Assembly (NCBI RefSeq): GCF_030463565.1
Contig: NC_134662.1
Coordinates: forward strand, 3,534,001-3,598,000
Direction: 5' to 3'
Length of the DNA: 64,000 nucleotides
Source of the DNA: Pelecanus crispus
Taxonomy: Eukaryota; Chordata; Aves; Pelecaniformes; Pelecanidae
Under the pieces are notes generated by a model, which saw only the letters and a list, made by a program, of their open reading frames with translations, was not told where the DNA came from and did no database searches. This document shows positions 49,201 to 60,300 of the stretch, one piece after another (the stretch's first letter is position 1; every line of letters begins with the position of its first letter). Both the position numbers and the translations under genes were made by a program.

Positions 49201-52200
49201 AAACCCTGGAGGTAGAGCCACTTAGCCATCAACTGCAAATAATTTGGCCTGGCCAAGGCTGAAAAGGCGTTGGCAGCAGCGAGGAGGGTTGCTGTGGGTT
49301 AGCGGCTGGTCCGGGGTGCATCCTTTGGAGGGACGGAGCCATTCGATCTCCCAGTGCTGGCTCTGCATCCCAGGTCCCTGACTGATGGGACCCGGGGGCT
49401 GCCCCTCTCCTTTGGTTTTTGGCTCCCAATCCATTAGCTGCTGCCTGCCCTCCTCCTGATGCGCTCTTTCATGCCAGCCTTGGTGCAGAGGTGACGCTGC
49501 CTTTTGCTGCCTGGCTCCTGCCAGATGCCTTTCCCTCGGGTGATGCTCGCTCACACCCGTCGGCCAGGGCCAACGAGTGGGTCTCTTCTCGTCCAGCTCT
49601 CCGCAGCCCGCTGAGCATGTCCAGCCCCTACACGTCCTCCTTCGGGATGGTGCCTCACGCCACCCTCAACGGGGAGCTCCCAGCCCCCAGCATGTACATG
49701 GGCATCCACCTCTCGCCGCAGGTCAGCAGCGCCGTCATGTATGGACGGTCCCCGATGGTAAGTCGCCGAGGGACGGGCCCGATCTGCTGGCGTGTGTCGG
49801 CTCTGCCGCCTGTCCCCTGCTTTTCTGGGTACGCACCGTCCCTGACGTGCGGTATCTGCACTGCTGCAGTGAGCTCAAGCCGGGGGGGTGCAGCCGTAGG
49901 AGGGGCTCCCTTCTGGAGGTGTCCGGGTTGTGGGGCGAGTGGAGGCTGCAGAGCTCTCGGAGAAGCCCCAACTGGTCCCGCTGGTCTGTAGCTGGGTCTT
50001 TGGGAGCCCATTTTGGCCTTTGTCACTTGCATGTGGAGGAAGCAACAAGCAGGGACCTTGCGCAGAGCCGGGCTGGCCCCCTCCCAGGGCGTGCGGGGAA
50101 AGGCGTGAGCCCGACCTTCGTGCCCGCTCCCGGAGGTTTGGCGCTTTGCTCATCATGTGCCCTTTGCTTTGTGCAGGTGGCTTTTGAGTCGCACCCTCAC
50201 CTGAGGGCTTCCACCATCTCATCGTCGCTCTCCACCATCCCCGGAGGGAAACCGTAAGTGTGGCTCCACGCAGGGGCTGTGGGGAGGGTGGGCAGCAAGG
50301 GGCTGAGCTGGGCAGCACGGCGGGGGGGATCTCCTTCCCCACGGCTCATTCTAAACCCAGCAGTCACCCCTAAAAATGTAACTCTAGGTACCTTGGTGCA
50401 GTGATAAATGGAAAAGGTGTAGGGCAGGGCAGGGCCTGGCTGGAGTTTCTCTCCACTTGCGAGTCCAATGCAGTCGTTTTGTTCCAGGCAGCTGGTGGTA
50501 ACAAGGAGCTGGTTAATTATAGCCCTCATTAGCTGGAGGGCACTGCGCACCTTCCACCTGGCTCAAGCGTGGCTAATGGGAGATGTCGGCTCCTGCACTC
50601 AGGCATCATGTAGGGATCGTTCAGTCCTCTCCTCTGCTCCCTTCCAGTGCCTACTCCTTCCACGTCAGCACCGATGGGCAGATGCAACCGGTGCCTTTCC
50701 CACCCGACGCCCTCATCGGCTCCGGCATCCCCCGCCACGCGCGGCAGCTCCACACCCTGACCCATGGCGAGGTGGTCTGCGCCGTCACCATCAGCAGCTC
50801 CACACAGCACGTCTACACGGGGGGCAAGGGCTGTGTGAAGGTGTGGGACGTGGGGCAGCCGGGCACCAAGACGGCCGTGGCTCAGCTCGACTGCTTGGTA
50901 AGGAGGAGGAGCAGAAAAGCATTTTCTGGGGGCTGGGAAGAATGTGTCCCCGTTACAATGGAGGGTCCTTTCATGTCTGTGATGAGAAAAGGAGATCTGT
51001 CTCCTGTGCCCCCCGCTCCCCATGCAATGATCAGCTCCTTCTTCATGTGCTCCTTTGCTGCAATCCTAATTCAGAACCGCGACAACTACATCCGCTCCTG
51101 CAAGCTGCTCCCCGACGGCCGCAGCCTGATCGTCGGCGGGGAGGCCAGCACCCTTTCCATCTGGGACCTGGCGGCCCCCACGCCCCGCATCAAGGCTGAG
51201 CTCACCTCCTCTGCCCCCGCCTGCTACGCCCTGGCCATCAGCCCCGACGCCAAAGTCTGCTTCTCCTGCTGCAGCGACGGCAACATCGTGGTGTGGGACC
51301 TGCAGAACCAGACCATGGTGAGGTGAGCCCGGGGCAGGCGGCACAGGGCAGGAACATGGAGGGGATGCTGGCTCTTAGGGAGCTGGTAGCCCTGATGTCT
51401 GTGCCCTCGCCCTCTCTGTCCCCCTCTTTCCCAGGCAGTTTCAAGGCCACACGGATGGGGCCAGCTGCATCGACATCTCTAACTACGGCACTAAGCTGTG
51501 GACAGGGGGGCTGGACAACACGGTGCGGTGCTGGGACCTGCGGGAAGGGCGTCAGCTGCAGCAGCACGACTTCAGCTCCCAGGTAGGGGCCGGGGCTGGC
51601 CGGGAGCACCATGGGGCCGGCCGGGACCTGCCATGCCGCTGCCCGACCCTGTCTCTCCCCTCTTCCAGATCTTCTCCCTGGGGTACTGCCCGACGGGAGA
51701 GTGGCTGGCGGTGGGCATGGAGAGCAGCAACGTGGAGATCCTGCATGTGACCAAACCCGAGAAGTACCAGCTGCACCTCCACGAGAGCTGTGTCCTCTCC
51801 CTCAAATTTGCCTCCTGCGGTAGGCGGGCGCCGTGTTTTCTGCTTGGGCTCTGTCGACTTTGGCATGGGTGGGGGGGGTGGCTCCATACAGCCCCAGATG
51901 GCTCCTTTTGGTTCCCCTGCCATGCTCAGCCCCCCTGAATGCAGTCCCAAACACTGACCCGCTTTCTCTCCTGCCCCAGGGAAGTGGTTTGTGAGCACCG
52001 GGAAGGACAACCTGCTGAACGCATGGCGGACGCCCTATGGAGCCAGCATCTTCCAGGTGCGGATGCGGCATTTGGACAGGGGGGATGAGGGTGGCTTCAG
52101 CTGCCAGTGCTGCCCTCACCTCCTGCCTCTCTCATGTTCAGTCTAAAGAGTCCTCGTCGGTGCTGAGCTGTGACATCTCCGTTAACGACAAATTCATCGT

Positions 52201-57300: not shown

Positions 57301-60300
57301 CTGACATGGAAGGAGTAGGCACTGGAAGAGGACGGATCAGTGAGAACCGACCGACGATCCTGCGCGGAGAGCGGCCGGCGCATCGGACCCAGTGTCCGAC
57401 ACAGGCAGCGTGGTTTGGAGTCAGAGCCGTGAGAACGGCGCCCGGTGAAGCCTGGCCGGGCATTCGACAGCCTGCTGCTGCCCGCAGCGCGTTCCCCCCG
57501 CCAAGGCTGCGCTCCTCCTCCCCGCTGGCCCCGGCCCGCCTGCACCTCCCAGCCTAAGCCCTGCGGGACATTTCGTCCCCTGCCCCCAGCGCAGCCCCAC
57601 TTACGGTTTCCCCGAAGTCCCCACTTGCATGCCAGCCGCCAGCCCCGGGACGCGCATGTGTGGGTGCGGGTCGTAGCCCACCTGGAGAGGACAGCGGGTG
57701 AGAGCAGCTCGCGCCCAACAGCCCCCGGGGCCCCGCGGGGAAGGGGCTCACGCACCAGCGGGGAGCGCCCGTAGCTGCCGGCTCCCACGGCGGCCGCAGC
57801 CCCGTTGAGCTGCGGGGACATGAGGTGGAGGCTGGCGTAGGCACCGGTCCCAGCCATGTCCCCGTTAACTGCGGGGTGGGCCATGCTGAAGGCGGCCGAG
57901 TAGGGGCTCTGCACTCCCAGCGGGTTCCTCAGGCCCAGGGCTGCCGGGGGAGAGGCGGCGTGAAGGGACGGGCCCCCGGATCCGTCCCCCCGGAGCCGCC
58001 CGCCCGGGCCCCGGCGGGGCCAAGCTCACCCAAAGGGTCCACGGGGGCCTTGGCGGTGGCAGGGCGAAACTGCTGGGCACCGCTGGAGCCCGGGGCCGCG
58101 GCGTCACCCTGGGAGGTGGGGGTGCTGGACTTCAGGCTGGGTGTCCCTGCCTTCTCCACCTGCCGGGAACAGAGCCAGGAGATCCGACAGCCGCACTCCC
58201 GCCCTGCCCGGGGGGGGGTCTCCTCAGGTCTGCCCCAGCGAGCTGGTCCCTGCTCCTCAGCCCTGACAGCAGCCCAGCCCAGCCGGCGCTGCAGGGGCTG
58301 CAGGACGGGACACGCGACGGGATCTGACAGAGCAGGAGCCCTCCCTGTCCCCCCAGCAATGCCTTTCCCCGAGGGTTTGGAGGCAGGCGGACCCGTGCCC
58401 AGCAGCTCCGCAAGCCGAGCCCGGGGCAGCGGGGACGGGAGCACAACCCCAGCACCCTGGCTGCCCCACACAGCGCACGTACCGTGGGCACGTCCTTGCT
58501 CCGAGACGGGGACGTGCTGCTCGAGGAGGCCATGGAGGTCGGGCTGAGTGGTACGGCCTCCTTCCTCCCCAGTGGGACCTTCTCCACCCCGTTCTCCCGG
58601 GACGAGTAGGAATGGACACTGTGCGGGGAAGAGGGGTCCTGGGGGGGGTTGGAGGGAAATCAGCAGGCAGCAGAGCAGGCAGGAGCATGGGGACGTCCCA
58701 GGCCATAGCAAGCTGGGAGCTTGAGTGAGGGCCAGGCTGGGAGCCTGAATCCAGGGGATCATCGCTGCCATCAGCGAGGGCTGAGCACGACTCGGGGGTC
58801 CCACGCCACCTCCCCGTGCACGCCGACCCCAGCCCCGTCCCAGCCCCCGGCACGCTGACCTCATCCACCACCAAGTTGTCTTCGCTTTTGTCCGCATCGC
58901 TGCCCTGAAACACAGAGGACGGTCGGAGCCAAAGGGGCCAAGGCTGCCCTCGCTCCTGCCTGGGAAGCGCTGGAGGTGCGGGCAGCTCCGCTCGTCGCCC
59001 CGCGAGAGGGGACGGGGATGTCCCAAGCACCCCAGCCCCCCTTCCCCGGGCTCACGTAGTCCGTAACGAAGTCCTTCTCCTCCACCTTCCTCTTCTTGCT
59101 GCTGCTCAGGTACTCCGAGATGGCTCGTGCCCGCTCCCCGTTCGGCAGCGCCAGGGAGCTCTGGGGCGAGGGGACGCAGCGTTAGGGGCCGCAAGCTGCT
59201 TTGCCCAGCTCCCAGGACAGGCAGCACCAACGCGGGGCTGCGGCCGGCTCCTGGGGCATGGGGGGCCACAGCGCAGCCCCCCCGGTGCCGCCAGCTCGGG
59301 CTTCAGCTCCTGCCGAAGGAGCGAGGAGGGGGACGGCACGGTTTGCCCACGTGACATGGGGAAGGGGTCCCCACGGGGAAGGGGTCCCCACGGGGAGAGC
59401 ACCCACCCGCTCTCACCCGCATGGCTGTGCCGACAACAGGGCCTCGGCCGGGGAGCAGGACCCAAGCACCCGTCCCCCCCGCGGCCGCCTGCTCCCCGGG
59501 TCCCCTGCACAGCCGGAGGGAAGCGTGGGAGAGAAGGAAAAGGCACTTACAGGGCCGGGGTCTCGCTCTGTCGCCGTGGCAACGCGGAGCAGCAGGAGAA
59601 GGAGGGAAGGAGGGACACGCTGTGCCACTGCCGAGAGCCCCCCGGGAAAGCCGCCCGCTCCTCCCGCAGGTGCCGGGGTGCTCGTGGCAGGGCCGGGCCA
59701 GTGCTACAGCAGCAGGGTGGTCCCAGGTCCCCACCAGCGATGACCCCAGCGCACCCCACTGCCCTCCCCGGAGGTGCTGCTCGGTGGGGGACACTCCCCA
59801 CCCAAAGCCCTCCCCGGCCAGCAAGCCCCCTGCTCCGCCAGCCCGGTCGGGAGCCCCGAGGCACGGACAAGCCACCCCCCACCCAGCACTGGCCTCCACC
59901 CCAGGGAAGCGCCCAAGCGGGAAGGGCACGGGGAGCAGAGGCAGCCCCGGGGCCAGCACCACCCGTTCCCAGGTTTGCCTGCTGCCAGGAGGGTCACACC
60001 AGACCCCCCCCCCCCGCCAGCTCCTGCTCCCCCACGCTCACCCCTGGGCTCGGTGTCGTGGACCGCTCGGTCGTCTTTGGCGAGGAGCTGGGCCTGGGCC
60101 CCCAGTGCCCCCGAGAGCGCCAGCAGCCCCGAGGCACTGCCGATGCCCGCAAGGCCAGCGGGCTGCATCCCGGAGGGGTGGGGAGTCAGCGGGATGGGGG
60201 GAGCGTGGTGTGAGAGGTGCTGGGTCTGGAGCTGGTGCTGGAGAGGAGCAGGAGGAGAGAGCAGAGCCAAAGGGCGAGTCAGGACAGCCATGGGGCAGGG

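Follow-up and report, generated by a model that had tools for sequence, protein, structure and literature searches.

A mosaic of near-identical and diverged exons points to recurrent gene conversion between the tail-to-tail TLE2 and TLE6 genes of birds

The locus

We analysed a 64,000-nucleotide stretch of the Pelecanus crispus genome (contig NC_134662.1; hereafter the window), which holds two convergent genes of the Groucho/TLE family: TLE2 on the plus strand and, on the minus strand, a gene that we call TLE6. The two lie tail to tail with their stop codons 2,057 bases apart, and the spliced reading frames of both are open. Their exons for the WD40 propeller form a mosaic in which near-identical stretches stand beside thoroughly diverged ones, and recurrent ectopic gene conversion between these old paralogues very probably accounts for it.

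34247..52249, plus strand: TLE2, 20 exons, 742 amino acids, open reading frame; splice model
54307..61264, minus strand: gene in the TLE6 position ("TLE1" in most database entries), exons 5–20; splice model

The gene order in the window is a TLE5-like gene (matches at 16.1–24.3 kb, plus strand), TLE2 and the minus-strand gene. The human genome has the same TLE5–TLE2–TLE6 order; the place of the minus-strand gene beside TLE2 and TLE5 is thus the position of mammalian TLE6, hence the name used here.

Mosaic identity between the two genes

The initial annotation, made from the letters of the window, had proposed conversion between the inverted copies from a hand alignment, and its difference counts for exons 15–20 and intron 17 were all reproduced exactly by our exon models and a position-by-position count. 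TLE2 and TLE6 differ at 11/250 positions in exon 15, 2/248 in exon 16, 3/148 in exon 17, 7/151 in exon 18 and 4/77 in exon 19; intron 17 is of equal length in both genes with 5/86 differences, and exon 20 has 29/108. The end of intron 16 is likewise alike, as noted earlier, with four differences in its last 47 bases (five in 52). Exon 16 opens with 240 identical bases (51075–51314), both of its differences falling in the last eight bases of the exon. BLAST and a repeat search independently recovered four inverted segments, which are given below with intron 17 and with exon 20.

50638..50908, plus strand: TLE2 exon 15 with flanks, matched segment; partner 57061–57332; BLAST 95.6%
57061..57332, minus strand: TLE6 exon 15 with flanks; partner 50638..50908; BLAST, counts
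51072..51338, plus strand: TLE2 exon 16 segment; partner 55668–55935; BLAST 98.9%
55668..55935, minus strand: TLE6 exon 16; partner 51072..51338; BLAST, counts
51383..51825, plus strand: TLE2 end of intron 16, exon 17, intron 17 and exon 18; partner 55059–55501; BLAST, 443 bases without gaps, 95.5%
55059..55501, minus strand: TLE6 end of intron 16, exon 17, intron 17 and exon 18; partner 51383..51825; BLAST
51583..51668, plus strand: TLE2 intron 17, 86 bases; five differences from TLE6 intron 17
55216..55301, minus strand: TLE6 intron 17, 86 bases; splice model, counts
51964..52062, plus strand: TLE2 exon 19 with flanks; partner 54625–54724; BLAST 91%
54625..54724, minus strand: TLE6 exon 19 with flanks; partner 51964..52062; BLAST
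52142..52249, plus strand: TLE2 exon 20, not homogenised; 29/108 differences, silent sites saturated
54307..54414, minus strand: TLE6 exon 20, not homogenised; 29/108 differences, silent sites saturated

The lengths of the other introns are dissimilar (TLE2/TLE6: 177/1139 for intron 15, 112/235 for intron 16, 160/357 for intron 18 and 85/216 for intron 19, versus 86/86 for intron 17). Since identity mostly ends at exon borders, one might suppose that conversion was templated by spliced RNA, as complementary DNA, and not by the neighbouring gene; the matched block, however, takes in intron 17 as well as the last part of intron 16, and we regard such a template as very improbable.

Synonymous divergence (dS) is 0.124 in exon 15, 0.017 in exon 16, 0.065 in exon 17, 0.206 in exon 18 and 0.276 in exon 19 (0.105 for exons 15–19 pooled). 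The regions upstream of the propeller are diverged, just as the initial annotation had it: dS reaches 0.79 in exons 5–7 and 1.27 in exons 8–14, and exons 5–14 share 49% amino-acid identity over 329 aligned residues. Exon 20 is saturated at silent sites between the two genes. Under the silent rate of exons 5–14, the probability of 20 or fewer differences at about 205 silent sites is 2e-46.

The propeller is highly conserved, most of its residues never changing in the 62 TLE2 and 75 TLE6 bird rows described below, and purifying selection or codon preference might be thought to keep its exons alike without any exchange. Silent sites and intron 17 are nevertheless nearly identical while other exons of like GC content at third codon positions (GC3) are saturated, for which, as was argued earlier, protein constraint alone is insufficient. 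All exons are GC-rich at third positions, and the contrast in dS is therefore not a matter of base composition; in TLE2, GC3 is raised in exons 15–19 (261/292 versus 341/415, p 0.0097). Residues that do vary, moreover, do so jointly in the two genes of a lineage (see below), and we consider constraint alone exceedingly improbable.

Silent differences are spread unevenly, with 1/61 in exon 16 versus 19/144 in exons 15 and 17–19 (post hoc p 0.009). If silent sites change at about 2e-9 per site per year, a rough estimate puts the shared state of exon 16 at a few million years and that of exons 15 and 18 at some tens of millions. For intron and silent sites, the evidence is that of the window, a single assembly.

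Within-species matching across birds

The comparison across species was made at the protein level. Two lists of at least 120 matches each were reduced to one row per species, giving 61 bird TLE2 and 74 bird TLE6 rows in addition to the window's two; isoforms and some further species were set aside when rows were chosen, and the propeller of TLE1, a third paralogue, served as outgroup only. Both genes were available as 35 pairs, reduced to 34 by dropping Nipponia (partial TLE2 model, long branch). The Falco pair mixes species (F. cherrug TLE2, F. rusticolus TLE6), and some TLE2 models (Strix, Pithys, Ciconia) are faulty at their ends. The non-propeller exons of the same two genes supplied the species tree, which departs in places from the accepted bird tree.

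The two genes of one bird match each other in exons 15 and 18. At the nine sites that vary in both genes, 302/306 cells match within species over the 34 pairs, the maximum in 5000 shuffles being 258. The excess holds when groups are left out: removing oscines gives 133/136 (shuffle maximum 123), removing Galloanserae 214/217 (189) and removing both 68/70 (66), the observed value being reached in 0/5000 shuffles in each case. Sites 23, 36 and 38 of exon 15 and 221, 224, 243 and 264 of exon 18 vary between species, nearly always jointly in both genes: I/L/M at site 23, T/S/A at 38, H221 in Galloanserae and M224 in oscines are examples. The within-species median is 0 differences in both exons, and the between-species means for TLE2 and TLE6, respectively, are 2.48 and 1.09 in exon 15 and 1.42 and 1.06 in exon 18. 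Across the 35 pairs including Nipponia, exon 17 shows a slight excess of matches (67/70; 142/5000 shuffles as high), there is no excess in exon 16 (33/35, one site) or exon 20 (17/35), and exon 19 has no site variable in both genes.

Placed on the species tree, exons 15–18 require 67 changes in TLE2 and 25 in TLE6. As many as 21/25 of the TLE6 changes can be placed on a branch that also has a TLE2 change, versus a mean of 1.9 and a maximum of 6 in 1000 random placements; the corresponding figure for exon 20 is 0/3. One ancient conversion or partial duplication, followed by slow divergence, would account for the low divergence of exons 15–19 relative to the rest, but not for the separate shared changes seen in Galloanserae, oscines, zebra finch, barbet, malkoha and sandgrouse, for the total of 21 shared changes, or for the uneven age along the exons; we give it very little credence. 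Also highly improbable is an assembly or polishing artefact in which one copy was overwritten by the other. The 240 identical bases of exon 16 do depend on one assembly; yet lineage-specific residues are common to both genes in many separate bird genomes, with gene-specific residues kept between them, and the window's TLE6 equals the deposited P. crispus protein, although that may come from the same assembly.

The trees favour what had been predicted, namely within-species clustering of the propeller exons and gene-wise clustering elsewhere: run on proteins, the prediction held for exons 15 and 18 (within species) and for exons 5–14 and exon 20 (by gene), and was borderline for exons 15–18 pooled. 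A gene-wise tree is rejected by the approximately unbiased (AU) test for exon 15 (p 0.0026), exon 18 (p 2.7e-5) and both together (1.6e-4), and weakly for exon 17 (AU p 0.033, Kishino–Hasegawa p 0.076). For exon 20 it fits as well as the free tree. Gene labels on the tree of exons 15 and 18 cluster no more than shuffled ones do (13 changes, mean 12.8). TLE2 and TLE6 of Galloanserae are joined with support of 99/93 and those of zebra finch with 100/92; exons 5–14 split by gene with a Shimodaira–Hasegawa-like approximate likelihood ratio (SH-aLRT) of 100, and exon 20 with one of 83.

Several observations weigh against recurrent conversion. The rise of GC3 is unclear in TLE6 (264/292 versus 296/343, p 0.14); usable protein variation is lacking in exons 16 and 19; and the matched residues are few, with nine sites. 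For exons 15–18 pooled the AU test is borderline (0.064, and in a second analysis 0.103 for TLE6, 0.082 for TLE6 with TLE1 and 0.027 for TLE2), since the gene-specific states at sites 164 and 183 persist. A further AU test of exons 15 and 18 gave 0.286 and 0.188 with eight sets of identical rows left free, and we kept it out of the verdict because these identical rows of both genes were free. With all this weighed, the initial proposal of recent or recurrent ectopic conversion between inverted copies is upheld by the within-species matching, the changes sharing a branch and the rejection of gene-wise trees for exons 15 and 18.

Age and direction of the exchange

A search with a turtle TLE2 propeller found copies of the minus-strand gene in turtles and a gecko. 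Over exons 5–14 these are 80–87% identical to the window's minus-strand gene and 48–49% to TLE2; TLE2 and TLE6 are therefore older than lizards, turtles and birds as separate lines. Turtle TLE2 (three rows) and turtle TLE6 (four rows) have T25, P76 and A243 in common, and in part S224; the avian states, alike in the two genes, are S25, A76 and mostly T243. Conversion probably ran separately in the turtle and bird lines and predates birds, with three to four sites as the basis in turtles; the turtle TLE2 and TLE6 rows come from different turtle species, which counts against this. In the gecko pair there are more differences in exons 15–18. In gecko, turtles and most birds, the residues at 306, 308 and 325 of exon 20 follow the gene, as do those at 164 and 183.

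At sites 53, 164, 183 and 246, the TLE6-type residue occurs in 31, 16, 8 and 50 of 62 bird TLE2 rows, and the TLE2-type residue in 2, 1, 1 and 0 of 75 TLE6 rows. Few changes in exons 15–18 are TLE6's own (4/25 unshared). Judging by these residue counts, conversion was probably mostly from TLE6 into TLE2. Transfer in the other direction is likely in pigeons, whose TLE6 (P0003, P0085) has Q53 and A69 as in pigeon TLE2 (P0163). Such reverse cases, in pigeons (site 53), a gannet (164) and an owl (183), speak against a one-sided flow, as do two TLE6-type proteins, P0269 (Baryphthengus motmot; Y183 and E246) and P0262 (owl; Y183), the search having favoured TLE2-like proteins. In the same vein, the rows counted are species and not independent events, and at 53 and 246 the TLE2-type residue is also that of gecko TLE6, which makes the polarity at these two sites less sure.

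Two gene-specific points interrupt the homogenised exons.

51484..51492, plus strand: gene-specific island in exon 17; codon 183 Tyr (TLE2)/Asp (TLE6) with a silent change, three differences in nine bases
51315..51320, plus strand: gene-specific end of exon 16; codon 164 Met (TLE2)/Leu (TLE6)

The island at codon 183 is flanked by 75 identical bases before it and 104 after, and follows the gene from gecko and turtles to most birds. Such an island is expected both under selection for a residue specific to TLE2 and where two tracts border on each other.

Propeller function

It had been suggested that conversion serves to keep two partner-binding propellers alike. The hydrophobic ring residues that bind WRPW, taken from the list as excerpted from PMC3419727, are the same in 75/75 TLE6 rows and in 61 or 62/62 TLE2 rows (a gap at 661 once, R at 743 once). 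Leu743 is among them although exon 20, where it lies, is unconverted, so identity of the pocket needs no conversion and the suggested purpose is weakened. More broadly, homogenisation might be favoured by selection for identical ligand-binding propellers, given that only propeller exons are affected and that, in the sections of PMC2720389 drawn on here, its authors speculate on binding domains in mammalian cases. We think this unlikely: the WRPW ring is alike even where conversion does not reach, the last part of the propeller (306, 308, 325) is gene-specific from gecko to birds, and the differences at sites 164 and 183 persist.

In a model of moderate quality for an Anhinga TLE2 (mean predicted local distance difference test score 68.5; propeller mostly 70–89), residues 50, 53, 183, 246 and 305–308 lie in hairpin turns and 164 in a strand. 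The minus-strand gene's propeller aligns with the TLE1 propeller in PDB 1gxr over 326/326 residues; the two have the same fold and belong to the same family, although TLE1 is a third paralogue.

Gene models and neighbouring sequence

TLE2 of the window is 99% identical to that of Sarcoramphus papa. The minus-strand protein shows 0 substitutions over 670 aligned residues against the P. crispus entry P0001, the sole gap being a six-residue micro-exon, which was placed by eye and was absent from the list of an automatic scan for an 18-nt exon.

59551..59567, minus strand: 17-nt micro-exon of the minus-strand gene, counterpart of TLE2 exon 8; residues ERDPGP in P0001

Exon 7 of the same gene has one base more at its end (60042) than the splice model gave, as the comparison with P0001 indicates. 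Exons 1–4 were not found within the 64-kb window, and most of the Q domain lies outside it; Groucho/TLE family domains (PF03920, the Q domain, and WD40 families) are precomputed on the near-identical P0001 and P0121. Against mammalian TLE6 in the PDB the minus-strand gene is far diverged (at most 210 bits versus 706 for TLE1), and NCBI names it TLE6 in one bird entry (Nipponia). Among the matches listed, its bird and turtle copies are mostly labelled transducin-like enhancer protein 1, and a few are labelled TLE2 (e.g. Columba, Amazona, Melopsittacus, Aegotheles) or, as in Nipponia, TLE6.

Downstream of the minus-strand stop codon, in or near the 3' end, A-, C- and AC-rich simple sequence occupies 53800–54010, where the assembly is least sure. 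Elsewhere, a short inverted match (45790–45842 with 8205–8254; 90% over 50 bases) resembles a bird CR1-type repeat.

Discussion

The mosaic in the window and the within-species matching of exons 15 and 18 among bird proteins are direct observations; from them we infer the tract mechanism, the bias from TLE6 to TLE2 and the selective upkeep of Met164 and Tyr183 in TLE2. Ectopic conversion between the inverted copies has very probably rewritten exons 15–18 and intron 17 repeatedly, and exon 19 less. Each exon, or the block of exon 17, intron 17 and exon 18, may form a separate tract, because introns 15, 16 (except its end), 18 and 19 are unlike in both length and sequence, which would probably halt the heteroduplex. 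Exon 20 and exons 5–14 would lie outside the tracts, diverging since before the lizard, turtle and bird lines split, and selection against converted copies may retain Met164 and Tyr183 of TLE2.

We offer a wider scenario tentatively, as one that is possible but rather doubtful: since early sauropsids there may have been a tug-of-war between conversion of exons 15–18, mainly from TLE6 to TLE2, and selection at Met/Leu164 and Tyr/Asp183, with exon 20 escaping and the oocyte role of mammalian TLE6 arising only after exchange had ended.

One practical consequence concerns nomenclature: bird TLE names and propeller-based trees are unreliable, the minus-strand gene being mostly filed as TLE1. We found no report of conversion between TLE2 and TLE6 in the open-licence literature searched; it may be known elsewhere, in subscription papers, which mostly lie outside that literature. 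In the same literature, searches on TLE6 and Groucho in birds found nothing, those on TLE6 in reptiles and on chicken TLE6 with the maternal complex gave papers that appear to concern other subjects, and one on TLE gene duplication in vertebrates gave a single general WD40 survey; the word "TLE" is absent from the main text of PMC2720389.

TLE2/TLE6 is a new, long-lasting case of a known process. Concerted evolution by gene conversion between bird paralogues is described, in the extracts of PMC3652749, PMC3024992 and PMC6829271 drawn on here, for major histocompatibility complex (MHC) class IIB; that is a multigene immune family, whereas TLE2 and TLE6 are two single, very old developmental co-repressor genes. 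The closest parallels are the mammalian pairs BMP8A/B, DDX19A/B and TUBG1/2, which, to go by the corresponding extracts of PMC2720389, are linked pairs under concerted evolution, with some exons and an intron homogenised for more than 100 million years while the rest diverge. BMP8A/B is also an inverted pair, but its members lie about 235 kb apart, whereas TLE2 and TLE6 are about 2 kb apart and tail to tail. Judged against the same extracts, the TLE2/TLE6 tracts are exon-sized, unlike those of the mammalian pairs; all of them fall in the WD40 propeller, whereas the mammalian pairs show no overlap of conversion with protein domains; and the exchange takes place in birds and probably turtles instead of mammals. 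TLE2/TLE6 thus adds a very long-lived, naturally replicated pair to the few known under lasting concerted evolution. Its tract borders run along heterologous introns and gene-specific points remain inside the tracts, and why conversion persists, be it geometry or selection, becomes testable by comparing many bird genomes.

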